64,000 nucleotides of DNA. It comes from Solirubrobacterales bacterium. GTDB lineage: Bacteria; Actinomycetota; Thermoleophilia; Solirubrobacterales; Solirubrobacteraceae. The DNA lies in contig DAIDME010000065.1 of assembly GCA_027449125.1 (NCBI GenBank), forward strand, positions 1-64,000, written 5' to 3'. Position 1 is the first letter of the stretch, and the number at the start of each line of letters is the position of its first letter. Below the pieces are notes generated by a model. It did no database searches and was not told the DNA's origin. It was given only the letters and a program-made list of their open reading frames with translations. A program made the position numbers and the translations under genes. This document shows, one piece after another, positions 7,408 through 50,478 of this stretch.

Positions 7408-7439
7408 GGGTGCGCGCCCGCTGGCGCGCACCCCTTTTT
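7408..7439 (+). terminator. intrinsic terminator of bioY, CGCT loop
   Basis: An 11-bp perfect stem (7408-7418 / 7423-7433) with a CGCT tetraloop is followed by ccttttt. It is a textbook intrinsic terminator 15 bp after bioY and shares its loop with six other hairpins in the window. Confidence 0.88.
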
Positions 7440-7507
7440 CAGCGCTCCGCCCCACGATCGACCCGGCGCTGTCGGCCATACTGGCAGGGTGGACTCGAAC
7501 GGTGGCA

Positions 7508-9229
7508 ATGGCTGAGAGGTCGATCGGCGGCTCGGCCGCCCGCGGCGTAGTCGCTGCCTCGCGCTGGACCGGCCGCCAGATCCGTGGCGAGGTGGTCCGC
7601 CGTGTCGGTGGTGCCGCTCGCGCGCGTGTGATCGTGCTCTTCGGGCTGGTGCTGGCGCTGAACGGCGCCGATACGGCGACCATCGGTGCGGTCGCGCCCC
7701 AGCTCGAGCACGCCTTCCACATCGGTGCGGGCTCGATCGGCCTGCTCACCTCGGTGACGCTGATCGTCGGGGCGCTCACGACGATCCCGGTGGGACTGGC
7801 CGTTGACCGCATGAAGCGGATTCCGATGCTGTCGGTGAGTATCGTGCTGTGGAGCGTCGCGTCGCTGATCAGCGCCTTTGCCGGCAGCTACTCGACGCTG
7901 CTGCTGACGCGCCTGCTGCTCGGGGCGGTCGTCGCCACCGCCGGGCCGGCGATCGCCTCGCTCACCGGCGACTACTTTCACCCGCGCGAGCGCGGCCGCA
8001 TCTACGCCTACATCCTCGGCGGTGAGATCGCCGGCAACGCCTTCGGCTTCATCATCTCCGGCAACGTGGCGGTCGCCTTCAGCTGGCGCTTCTCCTTCGT
8101 GCTGCTGGCGGTCCCCGGGTTCTTTCTCGCCAGGGAGCTGTACCGCACGGTGCCGGAGCCGCTGCGTGGCGGGCAGAGCCATCTGGAGCCGGGGGTCGAG
8201 GACCTGGTCGAGGCGGCCGCCCGCGCCCGCGCCCGCGCTCGCGCCCGCCACCGCGACAACTGGCTCGACGAGGCGCCGGCGCTGCCCCCGCACGTAGACG
8301 ACCTGGCCCAGCAGGCGGCCAGGCGCCTGGGCCTTGAGCCCGATCCCGACCTGGTGCTAGACCAGGACCCGCGCACGATCTCGCTGCGCGACGCGGTCCG
8401 CTACACGCTGTCGATCCCCTCGAACGTGATGATGATCGTCAGCTCGTCGCTCGGTTACTTCTTCTTCTCCGGCCTGACCACGTTCGCGCTGCTGTTCGTG
8501 CGCGGCCACTACCACGTGGGCGCCGTGGAATCCGACCTGGTGCTGGCGCTGCTGGTGATCGGCGCGCTGGGCGGCACGCTGGTCAGCGGCTGGCTCGGGG
8601 ACACGCTGTTGCGCCGGGGCATGCTCTCGAGTCGCGTCTGGCTGCCGGCGATCTGCTACCTGCTCGCGGCGCTGCTGCTGATCCCCGGCTTCGTCGCCAC
8701 GCACCTGACCCCGGCGCTGTGGTTCGACGTCGCCGGCGCGGCGCTGCTCGCGGCCGCCAACCCGCCGCTCGACGCCGCTCGCCTGGACATCATGCCCGCC
8801 GGCCTGTGGGGCAGGGCGGAGAGCATCCGCACCGTGATCCGTTCGGTCTCGCAGGCGCTGGCGCCGCTGATCTTCGGCGTGCTCGCGTCGCTGATCGCCG
8901 GCTTCTACCCGCCCCAGGCGCCGATCGGCACGCACCCGGCGGCGGTCAGCTCGAGTGAGGCGCACGGGCTCGAGATCACCTTCCTGATCCTGCTCGTGAC
9001 GCTTGCCGGCGCCGGGGTGGTGCTGCTCCGCGGCCGCCACCGCTACCCGCATGACGTCGCCACCGCGGGCGCCTCGAACCAGGGCTCGACGGCCGAGTCG
9101 ATCAGCCTGCGTGAGCCGACCACCCAGCTGATGCGGACGCCGCGCACGGGACGCCGTTCCCCACGGCGCGCGCCGCGGCGGGACCCCGGCCGCGATCCGC
9201 GGCGCGACCGGACACGGCGCTGGAGCTGA
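7508..9229 (+). CDS. MFS transporter
   Basis: This 573-residue protein is a 12-helix major facilitator. The first half starts with RVIVLFGLVLALNGADTATIGAVAPQLEHAF and includes the loop 2-3 motif GLAVDRMKRIP. A hydrophilic loop of about 100 residues (rich in RARARARARHRD and ending ISLRDAVRY) separates helices 6 and 7. The C-terminus is a basic tail (RSPRRAPRRDPGRD). The substrate is unknown. ATG 7508 was chosen because the longer open frame would run through the bioY terminator. The neighbour is convergent, so the gene is probably transcribed alone. Confidence 0.85.
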   Translation: MAERSIGGSAARGVVAASRWTGRQIRGEVVRRVGGAARARVIVLFGLVLALNGADTATIGAVAPQLEHAFHIGAGSIGLLTSVTLIVGALTTIPVGLAVDRMKRIPMLSVSIVLWSVASLISAFAGSYSTLLLTRLLLGAVVATAGPAIASLTGDYFHPRERGRIYAYILGGEIAGNAFGFIISGNVAVAFSWRFSFVLLAVPGFFLARELYRTVPEPLRGGQSHLEPGVEDLVEAAARARARARARHRDNWLDEAPALPPHVDDLAQQAARRLGLEPDPDLVLDQDPRTISLRDAVRYTLSIPSNVMMIVSSSLGYFFFSGLTTFALLFVRGHYHVGAVESDLVLALLVIGALGGTLVSGWLGDTLLRRGMLSSRVWLPAICYLLAALLLIPGFVATHLTPALWFDVAGAALLAAANPPLDAARLDIMPAGLWGRAESIRTVIRSVSQALAPLIFGVLASLIAGFYPPQAPIGTHPAAVSSSEAHGLEITFLILLVTLAGAGVVLLRGRHRYPHDVATAGASNQGSTAESISLREPTTQLMRTPRTGRRSPRRAPRRDPGRDPRRDRTRRWS

Positions 9230-9231
9230 GC

Positions 9232-10185
9232 TCAGCCGCCCAGCTGCTCGCGCCCAGGAGCCTGCTCCAGGCTCTCGGACGGCATCACCGCGACGATCCC
9301 CGTCGGGTTGACCGCGCCGTGAGTGCGGTAGTAGTGGGCGCGGATCTCATCGAAGGAGACGGTCTCGCGCACGCTTGGCCACTGGTACAGGTCGCGCAGG
9401 TACGGCCACAGCCGCGTGTACTCGCTGAGCTTGCGCAGCGAGCACTTGAAGTGGATGTGGTAGACCGGGTCGAAGCGGATGAGCGTCGTGAACAGCCGCC
9501 AGTCGGTCTCGACAGGCTCCGGGCCGAACAGGAAACGACGCTTCGCGAGCCGCTCGTCGAGTGCGTCCAGCATCCCGAACACGTCGCCCACGGCCCGCTC
9601 GTAGACGTGCTGGTCGGTGCTGAACCCGGCCCGGTAGACGCCGTTGTTCACACGGTCGTAGATGAGGTCGTTGAGCGCGTCGATCTCGCCCGCGTGGGCG
9701 CGTGGGTAGAGGTCGACCGGGTGGTCGGCCAGCGACGCGAAGACGGTCGAGAGCATCCGCATGATGTCTGCCGACTCGTTGTTGACGATCCGCCCGAGCT
9801 CGCGGTCCCAGAGCACGGGGACCGTGACACGGGCGCTGAAGGCCGGGTCGCTGGCGAGATAGGCCTGCGAGAGGAACTGAAAGGCGTTCACCGGATCCTC
9901 GTATGCTCCCGCCCCGGTGAATGCCCAGCCGCGCTGGTCGCGGATCGGGTCGAGGTAGGAGACCGTGACGGCCCGCTCCAGACCCATCAGCGCTCGCGTG
10001 ATGAGCGTACGGTGCGCCCACGGGCAGGCTCGCGCGACATACAGGTGGTAGCGACCCGGTTCGGGGGCGTAAGCGCTCGCTCCGTCCGCCGTCACCCATT
10101 CCCGGAAGCGGCTCTGCTGCCGCACGAAGGCGCCGTCACGCTGTTCGCCACGGCCGATCGTGAACGGCGTCTCGCTTGCGACCAT
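9232..10185 (-). CDS. glutathionyl-hydroquinone reductase-like protein
   Basis: The 317-residue product belongs to the Xi-class glutathione transferase family (YqjG/ECM4). The thioredoxin fold carries the catalytic cysteine in ARACPWAHRT near residue 54, and the helical C-terminal domain has the family signature segments NNGVYRAGFSTDQ and DWRLFTTLIRFDPVY. Members reduce glutathionyl-hydroquinones. Most actinobacteria lack glutathione and use mycothiol, so the actual thiol is uncertain. It converges on the MFS gene (2-bp gap) and diverges from the Ppx/GppA gene. Confidence 0.87.
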   Translation of the reverse strand: MVASETPFTIGRGEQRDGAFVRQQSRFREWVTADGASAYAPEPGRYHLYVARACPWAHRTLITRALMGLERAVTVSYLDPIRDQRGWAFTGAGAYEDPVNAFQFLSQAYLASDPAFSARVTVPVLWDRELGRIVNNESADIMRMLSTVFASLADHPVDLYPRAHAGEIDALNDLIYDRVNNGVYRAGFSTDQHVYERAVGDVFGMLDALDERLAKRRFLFGPEPVETDWRLFTTLIRFDPVYHIHFKCSLRKLSEYTRLWPYLRDLYQWPSVRETVSFDEIRAHYYRTHGAVNPTGIVAVMPSESLEQAPGREQLGG

Positions 10186-10222
10186 GGGCAGCGACTATAG
10201 GAGGCGCTAGCGTGCATGGGCG

Positions 10223-11101
10223 GTGCGCCGCGCCTGCATCGACATCGGCTCAAACACGACCAGGCTGCTCGTCGCCGATTGCGACGGCAGCGCGCTGACG
10301 CCGTGCGTGCAGGAGCGCGCCTTCACGCTGATCGGCCGCTCGCTGGACGAGTCCCGGACGATCCCGTCCGCGAAGCTCGTGGAGGTGCGGGATGCCGTCT
10401 GCCGCCAGTACCTGCTGGCGCGCGCGCACGGGGCCGTGCAGGTGCGCTGCGTGGCGACCGCCGCGATCAGGCGCGCCGCCAACGGCGCGGAGCTCGCGCG
10501 CATGGTGGCGGACGCCTGTCCGGGCCTGGAGCTGGAGCTGCTGAGCGCCGAGCAGGAGGCAAAGCTGGCGTTCCTCGGCGTGACGCGCACAGTGAGGCTC
10601 GACGCCGGCGCGCGGCTTGCGGTCCTCGACGCCGGCGGTGGCTCGTGTGAGATCGTGGTCGGCGACCCGCCGGCGCAGGTTCACTGGTGGGACTCTGTCG
10701 GGGTCGGCTCGAGTGACGTGACGCAGCGCTGGTTGAGCGCCGATCCGCCCGCACGCGAAGCGGTGAGCGCGGCGGCACGGCACGTGCGCGAGCTATTTGC
10801 GGCGCTCGAGCCGCCAACCGCGTCGCGCCTGATCGCGGTCGGCGGCAGCGCCTCGTCGGTGCGCACACTCGCCGGTCCGGTGACGGATCTGGCGGGGATC
10901 GACCGCCTGCTCGCCGCCGTCAGCGGGCTCACGGCTGCGCAGATCGCCTCACGTCACGGCGTCGAGCTCGAGCGGGCGCGGCTGCTGCCCGCCGGGCTGG
11001 TGCTGCTGAGGGCCGTCTGTGAGCTCTTCTCGCTACCGCTCGAGTTCGGCTCGGGCGGCCTGCGTGAGGGCGTCCTGCTCGATGCGGAAGCTCACCAGTG
11101 A
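10223..11101 (+). CDS. Ppx/GppA-family phosphatase
   Basis: The 292-residue protein has the ASKHA fold of exopolyphosphatases and pppGpp phosphohydrolases: the first phosphate loop CIDIGSNTTRLLVAD at the N-terminus, and a second loop VLDAGGGSCEIVVG near residue 137. It has only the short catalytic half, without the C-terminal HD-like domain of long Ppx, as is usual for the short actinobacterial paralogues. It may act on polyphosphate or pppGpp. GTG 10223 starts right before the phosphate loop. Its end overlaps the convergent reductase gene by 10 bp. Confidence 0.85.
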   Translation: MRRACIDIGSNTTRLLVADCDGSALTPCVQERAFTLIGRSLDESRTIPSAKLVEVRDAVCRQYLLARAHGAVQVRCVATAAIRRAANGAELARMVADACPGLELELLSAEQEAKLAFLGVTRTVRLDAGARLAVLDAGGGSCEIVVGDPPAQVHWWDSVGVGSSDVTQRWLSADPPAREAVSAAARHVRELFAALEPPTASRLIAVGGSASSVRTLAGPVTDLAGIDRLLAAVSGLTAAQIASRHGVELERARLLPAGLVLLRAVCELFSLPLEFGSGGLREGVLLDAEAHQ

Positions 11102-13110: not shown

Positions 13111-13156
13111 CCTGCGCCCAGGCTATAACGCCCGGGAGTCAACCGGCGGCAGCCGG

Positions 13157-13435
13157 CTACCAGCCGCCCTTCCACTCCTCGGCGGTGGTGCGGCGCTTGG
13201 CCGCGTCCATGCGCGCGTGCTTGCGGTGGTCGAGCCTGCTCTGGATGAGCGAGAACAGCACGATCAGCGCCGGGAAGAACAAGAGCAAGAAGAACATCAC
13301 CTCGGTGATCTCCAGCGCGTTGGTGGGGCCGAGGATCCCCTGCCCACCGTGCGTGACCGCGAGCGCGTTGGGCGCGGCGATTAGCATCGCCCACACCACC
13401 CAGCCCGCGATCAAAGCCGTTCGCTTACGGTTCAT
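13157..13435 (-). CDS. small membrane protein, unknown function
   Basis: The 92 residues (from ATG 13435) show two hydrophobic segments: ALIAGWVVWAMLIAAPNALAV (residues ~6-27, perhaps a signal anchor) and EVMFFLLLFFPALIVLFSLI (~44-65). They are followed by a charged tail ending EEWKGGW. I do not recognise the family. The start codon overlaps the end of the hydrolase gene by 11 bp on the same strand, so the two are probably translationally coupled. Confidence 0.65.
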   Translation of the reverse strand: MNRKRTALIAGWVVWAMLIAAPNALAVTHGGQGILGPTNALEITEVMFFLLLFFPALIVLFSLIQSRLDHRKHARMDAAKRRTTAEEWKGGW

Positions 13436-14342: not shown

Positions 14343-14375
14343 GCCGACATCTTAAACGCACGTACCATCAGAGCC

Positions 14376-16378
<2,003 letters not shown>

Positions 16379-16379
<1 letters not shown>

Positions 16380-19699: not shown

Positions 19700-19743
19700 C
19701 CGCTCCGGTCGGGGTGGCCAGCGGGCCACCCCGACCGGAGCGG
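19700..19743. terminator. bidirectional terminator hairpin, 20-bp stem, AGCG loop
   Basis: The arms 19700-19719 and 19724-19743 are perfect complements around AGCG (CGCT on the other strand). It lies between two convergent genes (19697 and 19752), so it can stop both transcripts. It has the longest stem of the CGCT-loop set. Confidence 0.88.
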
Positions 19744-23756: not shown

Positions 23757-24354
23757 TTGGTCAGATGTTTGGGCCCGCCGGTGAGCTATGCCCCGGGGCT
23801 CAGTGCGAGGGTTGTGATGGGCTTCGGCGTCCGGGACAATGGACGGCGAAGGAGGCGCTGCCCAGCGGGGCTCAGCAGGTGTACCGCGGAGCGGATCATC
23901 CGCAAGCTCAGAGAGGCTGAGCGATTGCAGGACGAGGGGCAGAGGGTCGCTGAACTCCGCAACCTCGCCCGGTGCGATACACGCGTCCGCCTCGGCCAGC
24001 GTTCTCCGTTCTCGCTCCCATGGTCATTGAATCCACGATAGTGAGCGTGTCGCCGAGCGCTGACAGAGAGGGGCAGTCCGCAGGGGCAGTTCGCGAAGTG
24101 GTACTGGCGCATCGCGGGCTCCAAACCACTGGCCGTCGCGACACTCAACAGTCCCGGGCTAACCTCGGCCTGCAGGGGCTAAGCGAACCCCACCATCGAT
24201 TCATCGCTTCTGGGAATGCTAAAGCGGACCGCCGGATGCGGGCTTGGCCGGCTGGTGGTGTGGTAGTCGCTGGGGTCGCAAAGGCCCCATGATGGGGCCT
24301 TTGCGACCCCCGCGGTAGCTCAGACCGTGCCGACCTAGACTGATCTCGAGCGCC
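23757..24354. other. gene-free region upstream of uvrC
   Basis: No frame here has a convincing start, composition or similarity. The only clear structure is the strong hairpin at 24271-24309. The uvrC promoter should lie between 24310 and 24354. Confidence 0.5.
24271..24309. terminator. 17-bp perfect hairpin, probable terminator
   Basis: The arms 24271-24287 and 24293-24309 (ggggtcgcaaaggcccc and its complement) pair perfectly around a 5-nt loop (atgat). No long T-run follows. It separates the accessory stretch from uvrC. Confidence 0.65.
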
Positions 24355-26271
24355 ATGCCGATCGTCGCCGCCGACCGCCGCCGTGAGCTGCCCGACGAGC
24401 CGGGCGTCTACCTGTTCCGCGACAGCAGGGGCCGAGTGATCTACGTCGGGAAGGCGGTATCGATCAGGAAGCGCGTGGCCTCGCACTTCTCGAACCCCAG
24501 CACGCGCGCTGGACGCGACCTGCTGCCGATGATCGCGACGATCGACGCGCTCGTCGTGCAGACCGAGTCGGAGGCGTTGATCGTCGAGCAGAACTTCATC
24601 AAGCAGTACCAGCCGCGCTTCAACATCCGCCTGCGCGACGACAAGTCCTATCCGTACATAGCGGTCAGCCTCGACGAGGAGTTCCCGCGGGTGTACTTCA
24701 CGCGCGAGCGCCACCGGCGTGACCGCGCCTACTTCGGCCCATTCTCGAGCGCCAAGCGCACGCGGGCGACGCTCGAGGTGCTCGGCAAGGTCTTTCTGTT
24801 CCGCAGCTGCGAGGGGCCGGTGCCCGGCCGGCGCAGCGGCTCACCCTGCCTCGACTACTACATCAAACGCTGCGAGGCGCCGTGCGCCGGTCACGTCGGC
24901 GCCGCGGCCTACCGGGCGGGCATCGACGGAGTGATCGCCTTCCTGTCCGGCCGCTACCGCGAGATCGAGCAGCGCCTGCAGGCGGACATGGAGCGCGCCG
25001 CCACCGAGCAGCGCTACGAGGACGCCGCGCGGGAGCGCAACCGCCTGCTGGCGGTCAGGCGCCTGCTGGAACGCCAGCGCGTGGCGATCGAGCAGGGCGG
25101 CACCTTCGACGCGATCGCCGTCGCGGTCGCCGAGAGCGACGCCAACGCACAGGTCCTGCAGGTGCGCGACGGCGTGCTGTCGGACCGCCAGAGCTTCTAC
25201 CTCGACAACGCGGCGGGCGCCGACCCGGCGGACGTCACCGAGGCCTTCATCATCCAGTACTACGCCTCAGCCCTGATGATCCCCCCGCTGGTCGTCATCG
25301 ATCCGAGCTCGGATGACGCGCGGCGCGCCACCGTGGCCCTGGCTCGGGCGCTCAGCGACCGGCGCGGCAGCCGGGTCGAGGTGCGTGAGCCCGAGCGCGG
25401 CGACAAGCGGCGCGTGCTGGAGCTCGCGCAGCGCAACGCCCGCCTCGCGCTCGAACAGGAGCAGCTGCGCTCCGAGCGCCGCCGCCTGCAGCGGGCGGAG
25501 GCGCTCGGCGGCCTGCAGCGCGCCCTGGGGCTCGACGCGCTGCCGATGCGCATCGAGTGCTACGACATCTCGACGCTGATGGGCACCAACACCGTCGCCT
25601 CGATGGTCGTGTTCGAGGGCGGCGTCGCGAAGAAGTCCGACTACCGGCGCTTCCGGGTGAGGACGGTGGGGGACGCGGCGGTGGGTGTCGGTGGCCAGCG
25701 GGCCACCGACACCGAGTACGGCCCCGACGACTTCGCCTCCCTGGAGGAGATCCTCGGCCGGCGCATGGCGCAGTACGAAGCCCAGCGGGATCGCTCGCCG
25801 CACGACCACGACTATGACCCCAGCTTCGCGGCGCTGCCGGACCTGGTGGTGATCGACGGGGGCAAGGGTCAGCTCGCCGCCGGGCTGCGGGCGTTGGGCG
25901 GGTTCCTGGAGCTGGGCGTGCCGGTGGTGTCGCTGGCCAAGCGCATCGAGGAGGTGTTCATCCCCGGGCAGCCGCAGTCGCTTCAGCTGGCGCACGACAC
26001 GCCCGAGCTGCAACTGCTGCAGCGGCTGCGCGACGAGGCGCACCGCTTCGCGATCACGCACCACCGGCAGCGGCGCGACCAGGCGATGACGGCATCGATC
26101 CTCGACGGGCTCGCGGGTGTGGGGCCGGCGCGCAAGCGGGCTCTGCTATCTCACTTCGGCTCTCCGGATGCCGTGCTCGACGCTTCGCGCGAGGAGCTCG
26201 AGGCGGTGCCGGGGATCCCCGGCAAGCTCGCGCGCGAGCTGCATCGCGAGCTCCATCGGACGGGGGTGTGA
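24355..26271 (+). CDS. uvrC: excinuclease ABC subunit C
   Basis: UvrC makes both incisions in nucleotide excision repair. The 638 residues show the GIY-YIG nuclease (EPGVYLFRDSRGRVIYVGKA), a Cys cluster (CEGPVPGRRSGSPCLDYYIKRC), the UVR helix (ERAATEQRYEDAARERNRL), the RNase-H-like nuclease (IECYDISTLMGTNTVASMVV; LPDLVVIDGGKGQL), and C-terminal helix-hairpin-helix motifs (LDGLAGVGPARKRALL). A hairpin at 25684-25713 inserts about ten codons (VGVGGQRATDT) between the RFRVRTV strand and the GPDDFASL loop, which normally lie close together. rapZ follows 90 bp downstream, a conserved actinobacterial order. Confidence 0.96.
   Translation: MPIVAADRRRELPDEPGVYLFRDSRGRVIYVGKAVSIRKRVASHFSNPSTRAGRDLLPMIATIDALVVQTESEALIVEQNFIKQYQPRFNIRLRDDKSYPYIAVSLDEEFPRVYFTRERHRRDRAYFGPFSSAKRTRATLEVLGKVFLFRSCEGPVPGRRSGSPCLDYYIKRCEAPCAGHVGAAAYRAGIDGVIAFLSGRYREIEQRLQADMERAATEQRYEDAARERNRLLAVRRLLERQRVAIEQGGTFDAIAVAVAESDANAQVLQVRDGVLSDRQSFYLDNAAGADPADVTEAFIIQYYASALMIPPLVVIDPSSDDARRATVALARALSDRRGSRVEVREPERGDKRRVLELAQRNARLALEQEQLRSERRRLQRAEALGGLQRALGLDALPMRIECYDISTLMGTNTVASMVVFEGGVAKKSDYRRFRVRTVGDAAVGVGGQRATDTEYGPDDFASLEEILGRRMAQYEAQRDRSPHDHDYDPSFAALPDLVVIDGGKGQLAAGLRALGGFLELGVPVVSLAKRIEEVFIPGQPQSLQLAHDTPELQLLQRLRDEAHRFAITHHRQRRDQAMTASILDGLAGVGPARKRALLSHFGSPDAVLDASREELEAVPGIPGKLARELHRELHRTGV
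25684..25713 (+). repeat. intragenic 13-bp hairpin with AGCG loop (uvrC)
   Basis: The perfect arms 25684-25696 / 25701-25713 flank AGCG. The codons it contributes (residues ~444-453) interrupt a normally short connection just before the conserved GPDDFASL loop. It belongs to the CGCT-loop set. Confidence 0.85.
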
Positions 26272-26361: not shown

Positions 26362-27258
26362 ATGTCGGCAACGGCTGAGCAGGAGCTGGCGTTACGCGAC
26401 CTGGTCGTGATCACCGGCTTCTCGGGCGCCGGCAAGTCCACGGCGATGGCGGCCTTTGAGGACGAGGGCTACTTCTGCGTGGACAACCTGCCCTCGGAGA
26501 TGATCAGCTCGCTGGTCGAGCTCTTCACGCACAGCGGCTCGAAGGTCGCGCAGGCGGCGATCGTCTCCGACGTGCGCGCCGGCAGCTACTTCGACGGCTT
26601 GGCCGCGGTCCTCGATCGCCTCGCGAAGCTCGGCGTCAGCCACCGGGTGCTGTTTCTGGAGGCCGACGAGGAGACCCTGCAAACCCGCTACAAGGAGACG
26701 CGCAGGCGCCATCCGCTGGCGCCCGACGGCAGCGTTGCGGAGGGCATCGCCCGTGAGCGTGACGCGCTCGCGCCGCTGCGCGAGCGCGCCGACGTGGTCG
26801 TCGACACGTCGGGTCTGACAGCCGCCCAGTTGCGGCGCAGGCTGGCTGACCAGATGCTTCCGAGCCGCACGCCCGGGCGCCTGGCGGTGACGTTCGAGAG
26901 CTTTGGCTTCAAGTACGGAGCCGCCCGCGACGGCGACCTGATGTTCGACGTGCGCTTCCTCCCGAACCCCCACTACGAGCCCGAGCTGCGCCCCTTGAGC
27001 GGGCTCGATCGGCAGATCGTCGACTTCATCGACCGGGATGGCGCGCTTGACGCCTTCTATGCGCGGCTGCATCCGCTGCTCGACTATCTGATGCCGCAGT
27101 ATCTGGCGGAAGGCAAGTCGCACCTGGTGGTGGCGGTAGGCTGCACCGGAGGCCGCCACCGCTCGGTGGCGGTCGCGCAGGCTCTCGCGGACCGCTACCG
27201 GCAGGCGCCGCAATATGTGGTCGAGGTCGTGCACCGCGACATCGGGCGGCCGGCGTGA
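26362..27258 (+). CDS. rapZ: RapZ/YvcJ-family nucleotide-binding protein
   Basis: The 298-residue protein has the Walker A of the family (ITGFSGAGKSTAMAAFED), the segment GYFCVDNLPSEMI, the C-terminal domain start RLAVTFESFGFKYGAARDGDLMFDVRFLPNPHY and the late signature VAVGCTGGRHRSVAVAQAL. In E. coli RapZ controls amino-sugar synthesis through RNase E and a small RNA; in Gram-positives the role is less clear. It follows uvrC, but the usual next genes yvcK and whiA are absent here, replaced by a VOC gene and then gap. Confidence 0.95.
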   Translation: MSATAEQELALRDLVVITGFSGAGKSTAMAAFEDEGYFCVDNLPSEMISSLVELFTHSGSKVAQAAIVSDVRAGSYFDGLAAVLDRLAKLGVSHRVLFLEADEETLQTRYKETRRRHPLAPDGSVAEGIARERDALAPLRERADVVVDTSGLTAAQLRRRLADQMLPSRTPGRLAVTFESFGFKYGAARDGDLMFDVRFLPNPHYEPELRPLSGLDRQIVDFIDRDGALDAFYARLHPLLDYLMPQYLAEGKSHLVVAVGCTGGRHRSVAVAQALADRYRQAPQYVVEVVHRDIGRPA

Positions 27259-30738: not shown

Positions 30739-32297
30739 GCCTGCCACCGCAACCGCTCGCGGCGCCGGCCCGCTGGCCGGCGCCCTCGTGTGCGCTGGTG
30801 GTGCTCGACGGCTGGGGGCTCGCGCCGGCGGGCCCGGGCAACGCCGTTTCGCTCGCTCGCACGCCGGTGTTCGACGCGCTCTGGACGCGGTATTCGCATA
30901 CGACGCTCACAGCCTGCGGGCTGGCGGTTGGGCTGCCGGACGGGCAGATGGGCAACTCGGAGGTCGGCCATCTGAACCTCGGCGCGGGTGCCGTGATCAT
31001 GCAGGACCTGACCCGCATCGACGCCGCCGTTGCGTCCGGGACGCTGGGCTCGAGCGAGGCGTTGCGGGCGGCCTTCGGCGACCTGCCGGACGGCGGGCGC
31101 CTACATCTGATGGGCCTGGTCTCGGACGGCGGCGTGCACTCGAGCATCGCGCACCTGCGGGCGCTGCTCGAGCTCGCCCGAGAGATGCGTGTCGGGGACC
31201 TGGTGGTGCACGCCTTCACGGACGGGCGCGACACTCCGCCGCAGTCTGGCGCCGGCTTCATCGCGACACTCGAGTCCTGGCTTTCCGAGCTTGGCGTCGG
31301 GCGAGTCGGCAGCGTCGTCGGGCGCTACTACGCCATGGACCGCGACAGCCGCTGGGAGCGCGTGCAGCTGGCGTTCGACCTTCTCGTCCACGGCCGCGCC
31401 GAGCACCGTGCGCAGACCGGTGCGCAGGCGGTCCGAGACGGGTATGAGCGCGGCGAGTCCGACGAGTTCCTGCGCCCCACGCTCGTCGGCGAGGAAACGG
31501 CGATCCGTCCCGGCGACAGTGTCTTTGCCTTCAACTTCCGTCCCGACCGCATGCGCGAGTTGACGCGCGCGCTCGCTGACCACGGTTTCGACGCCATTGA
31601 TCGCGGCGGCGCCCGGCCAGTCGAGCGCTACGCCACGATGACCGCGTACGACGAGCGGTGGGGTTACCCGGTGGCCTTCCGGCCGCAGCGCCCGAGCGTC
31701 ACCCTGCCACAGGTGATCGCCGCGCATGGTGGCCGGCAGCTGCACGTCGCCGAGACCGAGAAGTACCCGCATGTGACGTACTTCTTCGGTGGTGGCGAGG
31801 AGGTCCCGCAGGCGGGCGAGCGACGGGAGCTGGTCGCTTCGCCGCGTGAGGTAGCGACCTACGATCTGAAGCCCGAGATGAGCGCTCCGGAGGCTGCCGC
31901 CGCGTTCGTGCGCGCCTGGCGAGAGGACCGGCCGAGCTTCGGCATCATCAACTTCGCCAACGCCGACATGGTCGGCCACACTGGCGTCATTCCCGCGGCC
32001 GTCGCCGCGGTCGAGACGGTTGACCGCTGCCTGGGTGAGGTGGTGGACGCGGTGGCGCAGAGCGGCGGCGTGCTGGTGCTCACCGCCGACCACGGCAACG
32101 CCGACAACATGCTCGAGCCCGACGGCACGCCGAACACGGCCCACTCGCTGAACCCGGTGCCGCTGATCGTCGTGGCCGCCGGGACGGGTCCGCTGCGCGC
32201 CGGCGGCGTGCTCGCGGACGTGGCGCCGACGATCCTCGAGCTGCTCGGTCACGAGCAGCCTGCCGAGATGACCGGCCGAAGCCTGCTGCACGGCTGA
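30735..32297 (+). CDS. gpmI: 2,3-bisphosphoglycerate-independent phosphoglycerate mutase
   Basis: iPGM interconverts 3- and 2-phosphoglycerate with two Mn ions. The 520 residues begin the conserved core at CALVVLDGWGLAP; the phosphoserine is in MGNSEVGHLNLGAG; metal-site segments include AFTDGRDTPP, GRYYAMDRD, NFANADMVGHTG and LTADHGNADNM. Codons ~9-17 (APARWPAPS) are made by a small CGCT-loop hairpin, an addition in front of the core. It closes the gap-pgk-tpiA-gpmI operon and is followed by the convergent TetR gene. Confidence 0.96.
   Translation: MSLPPQPLAAPARWPAPSCALVVLDGWGLAPAGPGNAVSLARTPVFDALWTRYSHTTLTACGLAVGLPDGQMGNSEVGHLNLGAGAVIMQDLTRIDAAVASGTLGSSEALRAAFGDLPDGGRLHLMGLVSDGGVHSSIAHLRALLELAREMRVGDLVVHAFTDGRDTPPQSGAGFIATLESWLSELGVGRVGSVVGRYYAMDRDSRWERVQLAFDLLVHGRAEHRAQTGAQAVRDGYERGESDEFLRPTLVGEETAIRPGDSVFAFNFRPDRMRELTRALADHGFDAIDRGGARPVERYATMTAYDERWGYPVAFRPQRPSVTLPQVIAAHGGRQLHVAETEKYPHVTYFFGGGEEVPQAGERRELVASPREVATYDLKPEMSAPEAAAAFVRAWREDRPSFGIINFANADMVGHTGVIPAAVAAVETVDRCLGEVVDAVAQSGGVLVLTADHGNADNMLEPDGTPNTAHSLNPVPLIVVAAGTGPLRAGGVLADVAPTILELLGHEQPAEMTGRSLLHG
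30761..30784 (+). repeat. intragenic 10-bp hairpin with CGCT loop (gpmI)
   Basis: The perfect arms 30761-30770 / 30775-30784 flank CGCT, within the N-terminal extension of gpmI before the first conserved strand. It belongs to the CGCT-loop set and is the shortest member. Confidence 0.75.
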
Positions 32298-38258: not shown

Positions 38259-39911
38259 TCACATCGAGGCGGGCGCGCTGACGCCGAGCAGCCCGAGCAC
38301 AACCGCGAGCTGCGTCTGCGCGGCGGCACACAGCGCGATACGGAACGCCTCGGTCGGCGGTGGCTCCGCTCCGACCACCTTGCAATCCCTGTAGAACGCG
38401 GTGAGGTCCTGCGCCAGCTCCAGCGCGTAGGCCGCCATGCGGTGCGGCGCGCGCCGCTCGGCCGCCTCGGCCACCTCCTCGGGTAGGGACAGCAGCCTCC
38501 TGAGCAGCTGCCGCTCGGAGCTGTGGAGCTCGCCCGCTGGCGAGCTCCACGCTGCATCGACCGCGACTGCGCTGCGGACCCGCTCCTCGCCTACCCGCGC
38601 GAGCACCGAGCTGAGCCGTGCGTGCGCATACTGGATGTAATACACCGGATTCTCGGACGACTCGGAGCGGGCGAGGTCCAGGTTCAGGTCGAGGGTGCGC
38701 TCGTGCGAGCTCTGAAGCATGAAGTAGCGCGTGGCGTCCACGCCGATCTCATCCAGGAGCTCGTCCAGGGTCACGAACTCGCCGCGTCGCTTGGACATCG
38801 CGGCACGCGCGTCGCCCTCGACCAGGTGCACGAACTGGATGATCAGGGGCTCGAGCAGATCGGGATCGTTGCCGAGCGCCTGAAAGGCTGCCTTCAGTCG
38901 CGCGAGGTACCCGTGATGGTCGGCTCCCACCGGCAGCAGCTGGCGCTCGAAGCCGCGCTCGCGCTTGTTCTCCATGTAGGCGACGTCAGCGGCGAAGTAT
39001 GTCGGTTCACCACCGGAGCGCAGCAGCACACGGTCCTTGTCGTCACCGAAGGTCGTGGTGCGCAACCAGACGGCGCCGTCGTGGTCGTAGACGTGCCCCG
39101 CCTCGCGCAGGCGTGCGAGAGCGCGCTGCAACGGGCTGGGCGTGCCAGCGTGCAGTGTCCGCTCGCTGAAGAAGGTGTCGAAGTGAACGCCGTAGCGGAC
39201 CAGCGTGCCCTTGATGCGCTCGAGCAGGATCGCCACCGCCTTCGCGGCGATCACGTCCACGGGCACCGTGGGGTCCGCGGCGCCGTCGATCTCGGACGCG
39301 AGATCCGCCACGTAGGCGCCCTGGTAGCCGTCGGCCGGCGGCTCGTCGCCGAGTGCGCGGGCGCGCACCGACTCGCCCAGGCGCCGGATCTGCGATCCGG
39401 CGTCGTTGAAGTAGTACTCGCTGGACACGCTGTGTCCGTGGAGGCGCAGGATGCGGGCGAGCGCGTCGCCGTAGGCCGCGTGACGGCCGCTGGCGGCGAC
39501 CAGCACCGCGGTGGGGTTCGCGGAGACGAACTCGAGCAGGATCCGCTCGCCGGGGTCGGCGCCCCCGGCGCCGAAGCGTTCGCCGCCGTCCAGCAGGGCT
39601 CTCAGGGCTTTGCGGTACCAGTCGTCGGAGAGCTCGAGGTTCAGAAACCCGGGTCCGGCCACCGCGTAGGCGAGCAGGTCGCCGCCGAGTGCGCCCGCGA
39701 CGTGCTCGCCCAGTGCCTGCGCGATCTCGCGCGGTGCCAGGCCAAGCGTCGGCGCCAGCAGCATCGCGGCGTTTGTCGCATAGTGTCCCTGCTCGGCTCG
39801 GCGCCCGCGCTCGAGACGTGCCGGTGGCTGCGCGTCGGGCTGGCTGCCCCCACGCAGCTGCGCGGCCGCGTTGGCGACCACCATCCGCAGCTCCGCTACC
39901 GGGTCGGTCAT
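38259..39911 (-). CDS. argS: arginyl-tRNA synthetase with altered HIGH motif
   Basis: The 550-residue protein has the ArgS order: N-terminal additional domain, class I catalytic core (ILLEFVSANPT ... AAYGDALARIL; SEYYFNDAGSQI), the MSKR segment (AAMSKRRGEFVTLDEL) and the DALR-type anticodon domain ending GVSAPASM. The expected GPLHVGHGR loop reads AVLVAASGR (residues 135-143), so both HIGH histidines are missing. Overall length and other motifs are normal, so the gene looks functional. A CGCT-type hairpin contributes ten codons (WSSPAGELH, residues ~454-463) in the C-terminal domain. It converges on ccmH (13-bp gap). Confidence 0.92.
   Translation of the reverse strand: MTDPVAELRMVVANAAAQLRGGSQPDAQPPARLERGRRAEQGHYATNAAMLLAPTLGLAPREIAQALGEHVAGALGGDLLAYAVAGPGFLNLELSDDWYRKALRALLDGGERFGAGGADPGERILLEFVSANPTAVLVAASGRHAAYGDALARILRLHGHSVSSEYYFNDAGSQIRRLGESVRARALGDEPPADGYQGAYVADLASEIDGAADPTVPVDVIAAKAVAILLERIKGTLVRYGVHFDTFFSERTLHAGTPSPLQRALARLREAGHVYDHDGAVWLRTTTFGDDKDRVLLRSGGEPTYFAADVAYMENKRERGFERQLLPVGADHHGYLARLKAAFQALGNDPDLLEPLIIQFVHLVEGDARAAMSKRRGEFVTLDELLDEIGVDATRYFMLQSSHERTLDLNLDLARSESSENPVYYIQYAHARLSSVLARVGEERVRSAVAVDAAWSSPAGELHSSERQLLRRLLSLPEEVAEAAERRAPHRMAAYALELAQDLTAFYRDCKVVGAEPPPTEAFRIALCAAAQTQLAVVLGLLGVSAPASM
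38523..38550 (-). repeat. intragenic 12-bp hairpin with CGCT loop (argS)
   Basis: The perfect arms 38523-38534 / 38539-38550 flank CGCT. On the coding strand it encodes SSPAGELH. The ABC-F hairpin also encodes an SPAGE string, so the two copies share both loop and inner-arm sequence. Confidence 0.85.
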
Positions 39912-43399: not shown

Positions 43400-44605
43400 T
43401 CAGCCGCCTCTCGGGGAGGCGCCGGCGAACGCGTCGGCGACCACCTCCTCCAGCCTGTCCTGCTCGATCGCGGCGCGCAGATCGGCCATCAGGCGTTGGA
43501 TGTAGCTCAAGTTGTGGAGCGTCAGCAGGCGTGGCCCGGTCGTCTCCCGTGCCTTCGTGGCGTAGTGGATGTAGCCGCGTGTGAATCCGGCGCTGCAAGC
43601 CGGGCAGGGGCAGCCTTCCATGATCGGCTCGCGGGAGCCGCGGTAGCGCGCCTTGGCCAGGTCAACGCGCCAGCGCGCGCCCGGCTCGGGGACGATCGCC
43701 ACCCCGTGGCGTGCGAGGCGCGTGGGCATGGCGCAGTCGAAGGTGTCGATGCCGAGTTGCACGCCGTTCAGCAGATCGTCGACGTCACCGATCCCGAGCA
43801 GGTGGCGGGGACGCTGTGGCGCGGCGCGTTGGAGGGCGGCTGTGCTCCAACGCACCACCTCTTGCATCTGCCGCTTGTCCTGACCGAGGGAGCCGCCGAT
43901 CGCGAAGCCGTCGCATGCGCTGGCAGCGACGGTCTGCGCGGACTCGATGCGCAGGTCGTGCTCGACGCCGCCCTGCACGATCCCGTAGACGGCCTGGTCA
44001 TCGGGTCCGTGCCGCTGATGCCACTGGAGGCAGCGTTCCAGCCAGCGGTGCGTGCGCGCGGTCGAGCGGGCCGTGTAGTCGCGGCTTGCGTGAAATGGGG
44101 TGCACTCGTCGAAGACCAGTGCGATGTCGGAGTGCAGGGCCGCCTGGATGGCCATCGAGGTTTCGGGCCTCATCAGCCGCTCGCCGCCGTCGAGGTAGGA
44201 GCGAAACCGGACCCCCTCCTCCGTGATTGCGAGGATCGCGGAGCCGGCGCCGCCGCCGGCTCTGCTGACCGAACGTCCCTTGATCTCGTCGGCCACGCCG
44301 CCGTGTCCCATCGAGAAGACCTGGAAGCCGCCGGAGTCTGTGATGATCGGCCGACGCCAGCGCATGAAGCCGCCCAGTCCGCCTTGCTCTGCGATCAGCT
44401 CAGGGCCGGGTGAGAGGTACAGGTGGAAGGTGTTGCCGAGGATCATCTCGTAGCCGAGCGCCTCGACATCGCTCGGGTCGAGCGTCTTGACGGCACCTCT
44501 GGTCGCGAGTGGCACGAAGGCTGGCGTCTGGACGAGGCCGTGCGCCAGTCTCAGCGTGCCCGTGCGCGCGAGCGTCCCGGTCGCCTGCTTGCGGATCTCG
44601 AACAC
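43400..44605 (-). CDS. tgt: tRNA-guanine (queuine) transglycosylase
   Basis: Tgt replaces guanine 34 with preQ1 in tRNAs with GUN anticodons. The 401 residues show the nucleophile and substrate region DSGGFQVFSMG, EGVRFRSYLDGG, the second Asp in GIDTFDCAMPTRLARHG, and the zinc site CPCPACSAGFTRGYIHY with H in LLTLHNLSYI. The gene ends with AGASPRGG adjacent to the kinase gene (convergent, no gap). No queuosine biosynthesis genes are nearby. Confidence 0.95.
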   Translation of the reverse strand: MFEIRKQATGTLARTGTLRLAHGLVQTPAFVPLATRGAVKTLDPSDVEALGYEMILGNTFHLYLSPGPELIAEQGGLGGFMRWRRPIITDSGGFQVFSMGHGGVADEIKGRSVSRAGGGAGSAILAITEEGVRFRSYLDGGERLMRPETSMAIQAALHSDIALVFDECTPFHASRDYTARSTARTHRWLERCLQWHQRHGPDDQAVYGIVQGGVEHDLRIESAQTVAASACDGFAIGGSLGQDKRQMQEVVRWSTAALQRAAPQRPRHLLGIGDVDDLLNGVQLGIDTFDCAMPTRLARHGVAIVPEPGARWRVDLAKARYRGSREPIMEGCPCPACSAGFTRGYIHYATKARETTGPRLLTLHNLSYIQRLMADLRAAIEQDRLEEVVADAFAGASPRGG

Positions 44606-47373: not shown

Positions 47374-47391
47374 CGAACCTGGGCGACGGCT

Positions 47392-47703
47392 GTGGCGTAC
47401 GTCATCTTCGCCGTACTTCTGGTCGGCGTCGTCTGGCTCGTGAGCGCGCCGCTTCGGCGCGGGGCCCCCAGGCAGGATCCGCTTGAAGGGGTCAGCCCTG
47501 AGTCGCTGCGGCGCAGCGACCTCGAAGCGGCCCGCGACGCCAAGTACCGTGAGATCCGCGACGCCGAATTGGATCACCAGACCGGCAAGCTGTCGGACGC
47601 CGACTATGCGGCGATCGACGCGACGCTTCGTGCCGAGGCCGTGGACCTGCTGCACGAACTCGACGCGCTGGGCGACCCGGAGCCTCCACCAGCCGGGCAT
47701 TAG
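47392..47703 (+). CDS. CcmI-like small membrane protein
   Basis: The 103-residue protein has one N-terminal helix (AYVIFAVLLVGVVWLVSAPL) and a helical charged domain (LEAARDAKYREIRDAELDHQTGKLSDADYAAIDATLRAEA) resembling the first part of CcmI/CycH. The TPR half of CcmI is absent. GTG 47392 follows ccmF by 18 bp, so it belongs to the ccmE-ccmF operon. Confidence 0.7.
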   Translation: MAYVIFAVLLVGVVWLVSAPLRRGAPRQDPLEGVSPESLRRSDLEAARDAKYREIRDAELDHQTGKLSDADYAAIDATLRAEAVDLLHELDALGDPEPPPAGH

Positions 47704-47735
47704 GTGCCGGTGGCTGCGCTACCATCCCGTCCGTC

Positions 47736-47972
47736 ATGACGTTCGTGCTCGACGTTGTCCAAGTCTTCATCAGCATCATGCTGGTGTTTCTGGTCCTGAT
47801 GCACTCTGGCCGCGACTCGGGCCTGTCTGGTTTCGGGATGGGCGGCGGCGGCGGCAGTGGCCCGTTCGGGGGTGGTGGGGGCTCTCTGGTAGAGCGCAAC
47901 CTGAACCGCTGGACGATCGTGTTCGCGCTGCTCTTTGTGATCAACACGATCGTGCTGATCAAGATCAGCTGA
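47736..47972 (+). CDS. secG: preprotein translocase subunit SecG
   Basis: The 78-residue protein has the SecG layout: helix 1 (FVLDVVQVFISIMLVFLVLMHSG), a glycine-rich loop (GMGGGGGSGPFGGGGGS), and helix 2 (WTIVFALLFVINTIVLIKI). SecG assists SecYE in protein export. In many actinobacteria secG follows tpiA; here it stands alone 32 bp after the ccmI-like gene and is followed by a terminator. Confidence 0.9.
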   Translation: MTFVLDVVQVFISIMLVFLVLMHSGRDSGLSGFGMGGGGGSGPFGGGGGSLVERNLNRWTIVFALLFVINTIVLIKIS

Positions 47973-47988
47973 TATCGCCGCGGCTGGA

Positions 47989-48008
47989 TAGCCCGCGCGC
48001 GCGGGCTA
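47989..48008. terminator. 20-bp palindrome between secG and aldehyde dehydrogenase
   Basis: tagcccgcgc is followed directly by its reverse complement. It lies between convergent genes and overlaps the last bases of the aldehyde dehydrogenase gene. A role as a shared terminator is likely though it lacks a T-run. Confidence 0.5.
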
Positions 48009-49478
48009 GTCCATGTTGACCGCGATGTACTTGGTCGCGAGGTATTCCGCGATTCCCTCGTGTCCGCCCTCGCGCCCGAAGCCGGACTGCTTGACGCCGC
48101 CGAACGGCGCGGCGGCGTTGGAGACGATCCCCTGGTTGAGCCCGATCATGCCGGTCTCGAGCGCCTCTGCGACGCGCAGGGCACGCTTGACGTCCGCGGT
48201 GAACAGGTACGCCACGAGCCCGTACTCGGTGCTGTTGGCGGCGGCGGTCGCCTGCTCCTCGGTGGAGAAGGAGATGACCGGTGCGACGGGGCCGAAGATC
48301 TCCTCGGTCAGCAGTCGGGTCTGGTCGCTCACGTCGCCGAGCACCGTGGGCTCGAAGAAGTAGCCTGGGCGGTCCAGGGGGGCGCCCCCGGTCAGCGGCC
48401 TGGCGCCGTGGTCGATCGCGTCGGCCACGAGCTCGGCTACCTTGTCCCGCTGCTTGGCGTCGATCATCGGCCCCAGCTCCACGCCGGCCTCGGTGCCGCG
48501 CCCGACGCGCATCGAGCCGAGCCGCTTGGCAAGCCGCGCGGCGAACTCCGCCGCTACGGTCTCGTGGACGTGGAAGCGATTGGCCGCCGTGCACGCCTCG
48601 CCGCCGTTGCGCATCTTCGCGAGCACTGCACCTTCGACGGCGGCGTCCAGGTCCGCGTCCTCGAAAACGATGAACGGCGCATTGCCGCCGAGCTCCATTG
48701 AGAGCCGCAAGAGGGTCTTGGACGACTGTGACATCAACAGACGTCCGACCTCGGTCGAACCCGTGAAAGAAAGCTTGCGCAGCCGCTGGTCTTCCAGCAG
48801 CGGCTCGGTCGTCGCGCCCGCCCGGCTGGCGGTGACGACGTTCACTACCCCGTTGGGCAGGCCGCACTCCTCGAGGATGGCGGCGAACGCCAGTGTCGAG
48901 AGCGGCGTCTGCTGGGCCGGCTTGATGACCACCGTGCAGCCGGCCGCGAGCGCCGGTCCAGCCTTGCGGGTGCCCATTGCGAGCGGGAAGTTCCACGGGG
49001 TGATCAGCAGGCAGGGGCCGACTGGCTGCTTGGTGGTGAGGATGCGCCCACTGCCCGTGGGCGATACGGCATAGCGACCCTCGATGCGGACCGCCTCTTC
49101 GGAGAACCAGCGCAGAAACTCGGCCGCGTAGAGCACCTCCGAGCGCGACTCCGCCAGCGGCTTGCCCATCTCGAGCGTCATCAGCAGGGCCAGATCATCG
49201 ACCCGGGCGACGATCGTCTCGTACGCGCGCCGCAGGATCTCGCCCCGTTCGCGCGGAGGGTGTGCCGCCCACGCCGGCGCGGCCGCCACGGCGGCGTCGA
49301 GCGCCGCGACCGCATCCGCGGGCGACGCGTCGGCCACCTCGGTGAGCGTCTCTCCGGTGGCCGGATCTTCGACCGCGAGCGTTCCGTGTTCACCATCACG
49401 CCATTCGCCGCCGATAAGGAGCTGGTGCGGAACAGATTCGAGAACGCGACCTTCGTCGCCGGCAAGGATTGTGCTCAT
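48006..49478 (-). CDS. NAD(P)-dependent aldehyde dehydrogenase (succinate-semialdehyde type)
   Basis: The 490-residue enzyme has the full ALDH set: TPWNFPLAMGTRKAGPALAAG, the cofactor loop FTGSTEVGRLLM, the general-base E in SMELGGNAPFIV and the nucleophile C in NGGEACTAANRF. It resembles succinate-semialdehyde dehydrogenases (GabD-like; FGGVKQSGFGREGG near the end), but substrate choice cannot be fixed. It is divergent from the lipoprotein gene with the two ATG codons overlapping by two bases, so the promoters must lie inside the coding regions of each other. Confidence 0.88.
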   Translation of the reverse strand: MSTILAGDEGRVLESVPHQLLIGGEWRDGEHGTLAVEDPATGETLTEVADASPADAVAALDAAVAAAPAWAAHPPRERGEILRRAYETIVARVDDLALLMTLEMGKPLAESRSEVLYAAEFLRWFSEEAVRIEGRYAVSPTGSGRILTTKQPVGPCLLITPWNFPLAMGTRKAGPALAAGCTVVIKPAQQTPLSTLAFAAILEECGLPNGVVNVVTASRAGATTEPLLEDQRLRKLSFTGSTEVGRLLMSQSSKTLLRLSMELGGNAPFIVFEDADLDAAVEGAVLAKMRNGGEACTAANRFHVHETVAAEFAARLAKRLGSMRVGRGTEAGVELGPMIDAKQRDKVAELVADAIDHGARPLTGGAPLDRPGYFFEPTVLGDVSDQTRLLTEEIFGPVAPVISFSTEEQATAAANSTEYGLVAYLFTADVKRALRVAEALETGMIGLNQGIVSNAAAPFGGVKQSGFGREGGHEGIAEYLATKYIAVNMD

Positions 49479-50430
49479 GACTAGACCCTACAGCTTTGCG
49501 CGTAGGGGCAGCGCGCGGCTGCTCGCCGGCGCGTCGTTGGCGGCCGCACTGGCGGGCTGTGGCGCGACCGCGGCCCGTAGTGGAGCCGGCTCCAGCCCTG
49601 CCACGCCGGGCCCCGCCGCCACCGGGTCCCAGAGTGCCGGCGTCCCAGCGACCGGGGCGCTACCCGCCGCCGGCGGTGGCTCGCTCGCCGCGGGCGCCCC
49701 GCCGCCGGCCCCCGTCAACAGCAGGCTGATCCACCAGAGCGCCGCGCCCAAGCTCTCGCAGGCGAACTCGACTCTGGGTCGTCAGCAGGCGCCCACAGTC
49801 AGCCAGGGGCAGCCCGTGGCGGTCGGCCGTACGCCGACCGCCACGCACAGGCACGAAAGCACTGACAACGAGACCAGCGAGGGTCCGGCTGCCACCGACG
49901 ATCCATCGGCCAAGCCACGGTCGGCGCCGGCCGCGCCCTCCACGCAGAACGCCGTGACGAGCACCACGCCGAGCGCGGCGGTGCGAACGGTGGTCTCCGT
50001 GCGGACGATCGTGCGTGACGTCGTGGTACGCGTTCCGATGCGCCCGCGCGGGCCGCTGACCGCGTTTCTGCCCTCCACGCATCCGGCGCTGGGCCAGACG
50101 CGCTTTGTCGTGGCCGGCGGCAACGTCGGCTGCTCGCTCTACGACGGCGGGCTGTTGTGCACCGTCAAGCGCCGTGTCTGGGCGGGACCGGTCCAGCCGC
50201 AGTCGTGCAGGAGCGGTTGGGGAGATTCGATCGTCCTGTCTCGCAAGGGCGCAGCGCGATTCCTCTGCGGGCGCGCGAGTGCGATCGCGACCGGAGCGAA
50301 GGTCATCCCCGATGGCTGGGACGACCGTCTGGGCGGGTTCACCTGTCAGGTGCGGAGCGTCGGCGTCGACTGCTTCTCAGCCTCGGACCACGGGCTGATG
50401 ATCAGCCGCACCGGCTACGCGACCTATTGA
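49477..50430 (+). CDS. putative lipoprotein with DUF6636-like C-terminal domain
   Basis: The 317-residue product starts with a lipoprotein signal (RLLAGASLAAALAGCGATAA) and has a long low-complexity Ala/Pro/Ser/Thr linker to about residue 180. Its C-terminal domain has regularly spaced cysteines (AGGNVGCSLYDGGLLCTV, QSCRSGWGDS, RFLCGRAS, FTCQVRSVGVDCFSASDHGLMISRTGY), a pattern like the DUF6636-type secreted domain. The function is unknown. ATG 49477 overlaps the divergent aldehyde dehydrogenase start. Confidence 0.72.
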   Translation: MTRPYSFARRGSARLLAGASLAAALAGCGATAARSGAGSSPATPGPAATGSQSAGVPATGALPAAGGGSLAAGAPPPAPVNSRLIHQSAAPKLSQANSTLGRQQAPTVSQGQPVAVGRTPTATHRHESTDNETSEGPAATDDPSAKPRSAPAAPSTQNAVTSTTPSAAVRTVVSVRTIVRDVVVRVPMRPRGPLTAFLPSTHPALGQTRFVVAGGNVGCSLYDGGLLCTVKRRVWAGPVQPQSCRSGWGDSIVLSRKGAARFLCGRASAIATGAKVIPDGWDDRLGGFTCQVRSVGVDCFSASDHGLMISRTGYATY

Positions 50431-50446
50431 GTTCGATCGCCGGCGC

Positions 50447-50478
50447 CGGGGCTGCCGGTCCGCTGACCGGCAGCCCCG
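50447..50478. terminator. convergent terminator hairpin, 14-bp stem, CGCT loop
   Basis: The perfect arms 50447-50460 / 50465-50478 flank CGCT. It lies between the lipoprotein gene (ends 50430) and lon (ends 50506), which converge, so it probably stops both. Confidence 0.85.

Follow-up and report, generated by a model that had tools for sequence, protein, structure and literature searches.

Palindromic elements of Rickettsia are inserted in reading frames and lose the identity of their repeats. A hairpin or cruciform at the target of diversity-generating retroelements (DGRs) acts on the level of DNA; its GC-rich stems of 7-10 bp differ in sequence, the 4-nt loop is conserved in both size and sequence, and stem composition matters but stem sequence does not (PMC3240598). 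According to the cited sections of that work there is one such site, beside the variable repeat, with the loop GRNA (PMC3240598). Mitochondrial DNA of Nematomorpha is described as carrying perfect coding inverted repeats of up to 284 bp, with binary identity and with gains and losses between species (PMC6649704). Template switching has been reported to make perfect stems in place, with compensated changes and an asymmetry of T-A over A-T and G-C over C-G (PMC8794818), and repetitive extragenic palindromic sequences (REPs) tagged with GTAG or CGTC are palindromes of 20-40 bp in many copies, some of them genic (PMC3733652). The main text of a general survey of stem-loops contains neither 'loop sequence' nor 'tetraloop' (PMC1590033). 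Here we describe a class of hairpins with the loop CGCT (AGCG on the other strand), seen in a stretch of 64,000 nucleotides from a Solirubrobacterales bacterium (positions 1 to 64,000 of contig DAIDME010000065.1, assembly GCA_027449125.1; hereafter the window) and followed through its genome and those of its relatives.

In anatomy the DGR target hairpin comes closest, both having a fixed 4-nt loop on a GC-rich stem of free sequence. Unlike that single site with its GRNA loop, the hairpins described here occupy hundreds of sites, their loops are CGCT/AGCG or CGGT/ACCG, and their GC-rich stems are mostly of 10-14 bp. Searches of the open-access literature found no description of such a bacterial hairpin class, which is not proof of novelty. 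The original prediction, made from the letters of the window alone, placed seven perfect hairpins with this loop there, and all seven are present at exactly the coordinates that it gave. Together with an eighth, they are as follows.

7408..7433: hairpin, stem 11 bp, loop CGCT on the plus strand; 14 nt past the end of the open reading frame (ORF) 6770-7393 and followed by CTTTTT
15564..15595: hairpin, stem 14 bp, loop CGCT; within the ABC-F gene, encodes SPAGE
19700..19743: hairpin, stem 20 bp, loop AGCG on the plus strand; between the ends of convergent ORFs
25684..25713: hairpin, stem 13 bp, loop AGCG; in a variable segment of uvrC
26763..26788: hairpin, stem 11 bp, loop CGCT; in rapZ (the eighth, not part of the prediction)
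30761..30784: hairpin, stem 10 bp, loop CGCT; close to the start of gpmI
38523..38550: hairpin, stem 12 bp, loop CGCT on the plus strand; in argS, a minus-strand gene, encodes SPAGE
50447..50478: hairpin, stem 14 bp, loop CGCT; intergenic

The SPAGE string that had been noticed in both ABC-F and ArgS is real, and goes along with six inner pairs that are identical in the two hairpins. The hairpin at 7408 is probably intergenic, despite its label as coding by the crude ORF caller from which our split into coding and intergenic hairpins is taken, and in which it is counted as coding. The rapZ hairpin is probably a coding coincidence and a doubtful member of the class, as three relatives pair just 9 of 11 positions and the coding sequence is conserved; it is counted among the 65 stems given below. 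Four other strong hairpins of the window (2834, 5715, 24271 and 39972) indeed have different loops, as predicted. Strong hairpins outside the class include those at 5714-5759 (stem 21, loop ACCA) and 24272-24310 (stem 18, loop TGA).

The class is real and genome-wide. The source genome (G000; 113 contigs, 3,165,141 bp), whose genus is a Conexibacter-like member of Solirubrobacterales, was sampled as the window plus 40 stretches of at most 20 kb each (862,412 bp, 27% of the genome), and a hairpin was counted where a perfect stem of at least 10 bp closes on a 4-nt loop. CGCT or AGCG is the loop in 65 of 101 such stems, and in 37 of 53 in a first, smaller sample consisting of the window and twenty 20-kb stretches (464 kb). 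Among shorter stems (5-8 bp) this loop is not clearly over-represented. Scaling 65 per 862 kb to 3.17 Mb gives an estimate of ∼240 hairpins per chromosome, and in the whole genome the word GCCCGCTGGC is found 236 times, compared with 64 for its reversal. Chance, codon bias or base composition could be suspected where GC content is high (69% in the window), and probably does account for the rapZ hairpin. However, a third-order Markov copy of the 464 kb contained 5 stems of at least 10 bp, with the CGCT/AGCG loop in 0 of them as opposed to 37. Shuffling of synonymous codons (60 repeats) left a mean of 14.27 and a maximum of 15 CGCT/AGCG stems, made up of the 14 intergenic ones, which were not shuffled, and on average 0.27 in place of 51 real coding stems. 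For the class as a whole this explanation is refuted, and we give it practically no credence. The original prediction had named a genome-wide tabulation of loops with a codon-preserving control as its check, and CGCT/AGCG came out enriched.

Pairing around the loop is all-or-none. At the AGCG/CGCT tetranucleotides of G000, ten of ten flanking pairs are found 65 times, nine of ten 11 times and eight of ten 37 times, which is 93-fold, 3.8-fold and 1.5-fold, respectively, over all other tetranucleotides. The jump at ten pairs is also present in G012 (Conexibacter sp. S30A1), G018 and G006, where nine pairs are enriched 6.5- to 11-fold; a pairing tally for G026 was set aside because runs of N had probably been scored as paired. 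Loops that differ by a single mutation are not enriched at nine of ten pairs, and hardly at ten (7 of 121,405 versus 29 of 724,231). Two side observations concern the sampled stretches. The first 80 kb of contig C45 of G000 held one perfect CGCT hairpin against an overall density of ∼1 per 13 kb, and is possibly acquired DNA. A few long stems close on a 5-nt loop, AAGCG/CGCTT (3 in the G000 sample, 2 in the G012 sample), and are perhaps variants of the same element; a CGCTT-like hairpin at C45:75046 is common to G000 and G012.

The prediction that the arms differ and the loop does not has to be qualified. Next to the loop the arms share a consensus, the inner three bases being GCC in 39 of 65, but this becomes weaker farther out. 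A is rare on the 5' side of the arms, with T:A at 57:16 in CGCT/AGCG stems versus 35:47 in stems with other loops, and G (275) is not in excess over C (302). Conservation next to the loop is strongest for C: all 14 intergenic hairpins have C directly ahead of the loop, and all 14 have G at the third base ahead of it. The arms show a triplet periodicity, most of which is attributed to the predominance of one codon phase (29 of 51). The positions of the hairpins look random by eye, and no flank motif was found around the 65 hairpins (flank information at most 0.22 bits).

Structures in mRNA, such as terminators, attenuators or sites for RNA-binding proteins, would fit the intergenic hairpins, which make up 14 of 65 where 11% of the sequence is non-coding, with several between convergent genes, and would fit the T-run at 7408. 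The remaining 51 are in ORFs, however, and the loop reads AGCG on the coding strand in 25 and CGCT in 26, with all codon phases represented. The T-run expected of an intrinsic terminator follows 1 of 65 hairpins only, that at 7408, and in the window Rfam gave no match at gathering score besides one tRNA. The lack of a coding-strand preference, together with the single T-run, argues for DNA rather than RNA, and we consider a role in mRNA very unlikely.

Nucleotide conservation was assessed at orthologous sites, all selected via perfect pairing in the query genome. Of the 24 G000 hairpins that could be aligned to G012, this genome shares 18 in gapless alignment, lacks 4 and is intermediate at 2. 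At the 18 shared sites the flanks have diverged by 17.1%, the stems by 4.7%, and none of the 18 loops has changed. Divergence at the three codon positions is 2.6, 1.8 and 8.5% in stems and 11.0, 6.4 and 28.7% in flanks, and intergenic stems differ at 6 of 100 bases versus 18.9% in their flanks. Divergence is thus ∼3-4 times lower in shared stems than in flanks, also at synonymous sites, and since this holds at all codon positions and between genes, the constraint acts on nucleotides. In the window, the hairpins at 7408 and in gpmI are identical in G012, and that at 50447 is unchanged over all 32 nt between flanks of ∼81% identity. The ABC-F hairpin keeps its 10 inner pairs there, the argS hairpin 10 of 12 pairs, and the hairpin at 19700 a stem of 15 bp with the same inner arms.

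Over all genomes, 177 orthologue comparisons were made, of which 102 are gapless. Pairing in these is bimodal, with 23 comparisons at a paired fraction of 0.2-0.6, none at 0.7 and 79 at 0.8-1.0; the comparisons are not independent, as the same site was compared several times. Of the 102, 77 count as shared, and every one of the 77 has kept the loop. The suggestion that the loop is under selection, perhaps being recognised by a protein, survives. Relative to G000, both sides have changed in 18 of 404 pairs, 17 of them with compensation and 1 broken, compared to 3 of 16 compensated when the partner was slid by 1-3 positions. Arm divergence is kept compensatory, as had been proposed, in this actinobacterial lineage.

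Single sites indicate how the hairpins arise. Relatives of equal length that have no hairpin are found at the ABC-F site (G008), in uvrC (G012 and G021), in argS (G016, strain DBS9H8), and at C33:18240 (G013), C34:53132 (G013) and C14:60339 (G012 and G013). The coding hairpin at C33:33941 is identical in G000, G012, G018 and G006, and corresponds to gap-free sequence without a hairpin in G026 and G016; G004, G001 and G008 align there with small gaps inside or close to the site. At several coding sites, origin was therefore by substitution and not by insertion. At several loop positions the hairpin-free relatives have no CGCT or AGCG, and the loop too was made in place. Hairpins may also differ between relatives. 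In ABC-F, the CGCT hairpin of G013 is a different one and is slightly displaced. In gpmI, both G006 and G026 carry a CGCT hairpin at nearly the same position as G000; these two are one compensated pair apart from each other, and their arms are unlike those of G000 and G012. The coding site C14:83710 has the arm CACGGCCGCCC around CGCT in G000, G012 and G021, a C-G flip on both sides in G018 and an unlike arm, TCGGGGTCC, in G006, the latter two likewise around CGCT; in G013 the loop is intact and 8 of 10 positions pair. Nineteen other genomes were aligned here: G026, G009 and G015 differ in length, 16 are of equal length, and 15 of those 16 have no such hairpin (at least 8 of 10 pairs). At C33:34736 the arms are GCCGGTGGTCC in G000 and G021 (in G021 with one mismatch), GCCGGGGGCC in G018 and GCAGGGGGCC in G006, with compensated differences, and three C-G flips between G000 and G012 at C34:79166 are all compensated. 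The arm 5' of AGCG has been kept at C34:53132, C14:60339, C33:18240 and C14:68725, and rather the other arm in argS, while C33:33941 clearly favours neither; a consistent polarity of the ancestral arm relative to the loop was rejected, as the alignments disagree among sites.

These sites bear on the idea that a mobile palindromic element, similar to REPs or to the Rickettsia elements, was copied and then diverged with compensation. The hairpins are like REPs in being many-copy palindromes, some within genes, and like the Rickettsia elements in being palindromes inside reading frames. They are dispersed, they have the core consensus mentioned above, and some arms recur: the C14:85468 hairpin has 24-28 of its bases repeated identically at another four G000 locations, and the C33:19257 hairpin has 24-29 bases that recur at two places with 97-100% identity. 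Copying may thus account for a few hairpins, given these recurring arms at non-orthologous places. Unlike the Rickettsia elements, however, the hairpins retain their repeat identity and are not insertions where this was checked, relatives being of equal length at alignable coding sites. The original prediction had coding hairpins adding about 8-11 residues; where it can be checked, these residues occupy ancestral positions, which counts against the insert idea only. Unlike REPs, the hairpins are mostly genic and untagged (within 12 nt of the 65 hairpins, GTAG is found left of 2 and right of 0, CGTC left of 6 and right of 6), and they share a core consensus and a few recurring arms but no sequence of the whole stem. 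Look-alike arm pairs are about as frequent as in column-shuffled arms, so spreading by copying is unsupported as the main route. No REP-associated tyrosine transposase (RAYT) gene flanked by repeats was found among the Y1 transposase genes looked at. Y1 matches are present in six of 28 genomes (G000, G012, G018, G021, G002 and G017), are missing from the hairpin genomes G006, G008, G013 and G026, and do not track the trait across the group. Around the Y1 genes of L290 and L085 no such hairpin was seen within 1.5 kb, and none in loci L308-L311. One of these, L310 (G000 C89, ∼44167-44529), reads from its ORFs as an IS200/IS605-like pair, a Y1 transposase beside a TnpB-like ORF. A REP/RAYT origin was rejected, as the Y1 gene examined adjoins the TnpB-like ORF and has no such hairpin near it. 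A mobile element as the source of the class seems to us improbable.

The trait is concentrated in eight related genomes: G000, G012, G018, G006, G013, G026, G008 and G021. Counts of GCCCGCTGGC reach at least twice the control in all of these except G013, and among 201 genomes drawn evenly from the order, a draw that did not contain G021, at least 100 matches and twice the control were found only in the other six; a few others reached twice the control, each with at most 54 matches. In samples of 40 kb or 80 kb, CGCT/AGCG is the loop of 17 of 30 4-nt-loop stems in G012, 24 of 32 in G018, 8 of 13 in G006, 7 of 12 in G013, 3 of 9 in G026, 1 of 7 in G008, 2 of 2 in G021, 0 of 1 in G004 and none in G011. 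In the UvrC tree the eight genomes require one change, with weak support (62/40); G004 and G016+G015 join them in a larger, well supported group. Not one perfect CGCT hairpin is present in 320 kb of G016; four of its five long 4-nt-loop stems have the loop CGGT, and GCCCGGTGGC occurs 89 times versus 54.

Mutation without function is a further candidate, in which the hairpins are made and kept perfect, with no selection, by template switching or correction of palindromes, favoured by the replication machinery of this group where the snap-back loop is CGCT. All-or-none pairing and origin in place are in its favour. The excess of T over A on the 5' side (57:16) fits the asymmetry of U-A over A-U ascribed to intrastrand switching (PMC8794818), so that these hairpins resemble template-switch products in their in-place perfect stems, their compensated changes and the T-A part of the asymmetry. 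That work describes a mutation mechanism in RNA genes, not a dispersed one-loop class, and the published G-over-C asymmetry is not seen here. The Nematomorpha palindromes are likewise perfect genic repeats with binary identity, but are mitochondrial, and no fixed loop is described in the cited sections (PMC6649704). Mutation alone does not account for the fixed loop. At 17% flank divergence about half of the 18 loops shared by G000 and G012 should differ and none does, for which the chance is 1.3e-6, assuming independent sites and loops that diverge like flanks. There is also no pool of one-mutant loops with decaying stems, and the loop itself has been made at sites where hairpin-free relatives do not have it. 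Correction alone should, we infer, let the arms drift, yet stems are less diverged than flanks. Template switching by itself predicts free paired arms and in-place origin but no constant loop; selection on a DNA structure that is read through its loop predicts a near-constant loop, free paired arms, in-place origin and low synonymous divergence of stems. We regard mutation without function as unlikely, though well short of negligible.

The fixed loop and co-changing arms suggest a cellular component that recognises the sites by their shape and tip. Our preferred explanation, which we hold to be somewhat better than an even bet, is that the hairpins are dispersed cis-acting DNA sites with a fixed tetraloop and a perfect stem, maintained by selection, with arms likely supplied by template switching. 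A site would be defined by its loop (CGCT on one strand, AGCG on the other) and by perfect pairing, the sequence of the stem being largely free. It would act as DNA and not as mRNA, either extruded as a cruciform or folded into a hairpin where replication intermediates are single-stranded. The loop would be read by a protein or nucleoprotein specific to the lineage, mutants in loop or pairing would be selected against, and snap-back copying of one arm may provide new and compensated arms. By analogy, a hairpin-reading DNA transaction as at DGR targets is a first guess for the role of the reader. More tentatively, at slightly below even credence, the sites may form a mostly genic shape-plus-tetraloop class of hundreds per genome, whose reader co-evolves with the loop to give the lineage 'dialects' CGCT and CGGT. 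Two other candidates were rejected. Loss of SbcCD as the cause is non-discriminating, since 2 of 28 genus members have an sbcD match that attains the family cut-off. The Chi sequence of B. subtilis is AGCGG; a Chi-like site (AGCGG as loop plus closing G) does not agree with the 12:11 split between strands over 23 sites in G012, and the CGGT loop misfits.

Several observations weigh against selected, loop-read sites. No trans factor that reads the loop was found. The near-loop arm consensus and the excess of T over A (57:16) are not predicted by pure selection for structure. Gaps excluded 75 of the 177 orthologue comparisons from the pairing histogram. Compensated changes are few (13 distinct ones at 5 sites, with 5 at a single site), and 18 one-sided pair changes persist. 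At C33:34736, which lies outside the 77-comparison loop set, G012 has the loop GGCG and 9 of 11 pairs, with two broken inner pairs, and the closing pair is missing in G018 and G006. At C14:83710, a CGCT hairpin of G005 (L219:2609) pairs at 14 of 15 positions, although this genome falls outside the group on the tree of this gene, so that this hairpin is either much older than the group or was gained twice; the word count of G005 is not raised (110 versus 103). G027 has a CGCT hairpin too (locus L106), so that the trait is not confined strictly to the group, and G008 and G026 are hairpin-poor in the samples. The eight hairpin genomes may not be one clade, because the tree of the C14 gene, which reads as a dihydroorotase, places G015+G016 between G026+G008 and the remaining six (80/67).

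A survey of loops at 80 named uvrC loci also revealed distinct arrays, mostly of tandem perfect palindromes of 22-24 bp, each with CATG at its centre; the arms of neighbours differ and all are perfectly self-complementary. No Rfam match was found for the arrays in L110, L138 and L152.

L104:1944-2014: CATG array, just after uvrC
L110:3767-3839: CATG array, just after uvrC
L113:11475-11522: CATG array, just after uvrC
L168:8801-8836: CATG palindrome of 36 bp, just after uvrC, at a contig end
L138:9225-9295: CATG array, shortly before uvrC
L149:7479-7573: CATG array, shortly before uvrC
L152:5364-5458: CATG array, shortly before uvrC
L173:2711-2781: CATG array, before a partial uvrC match

Chi, FtsK-orienting polar sequences (KOPS), uptake sequences and REPs are bacterial site classes defined by their words. 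The sites described here are defined by pairing and loop, are mostly genic, and have nearly always kept the loop while the arms changed. Public complete genomes exist for a strain with the trait (S30A1) and for one with the other loop (DBS9H8). If a factor reads these sites, they would constitute a genome-wide code of DNA structure; if there is no reader, they would represent natural writing of palindromes in this group, on a scale that allows direct tests of template switching.

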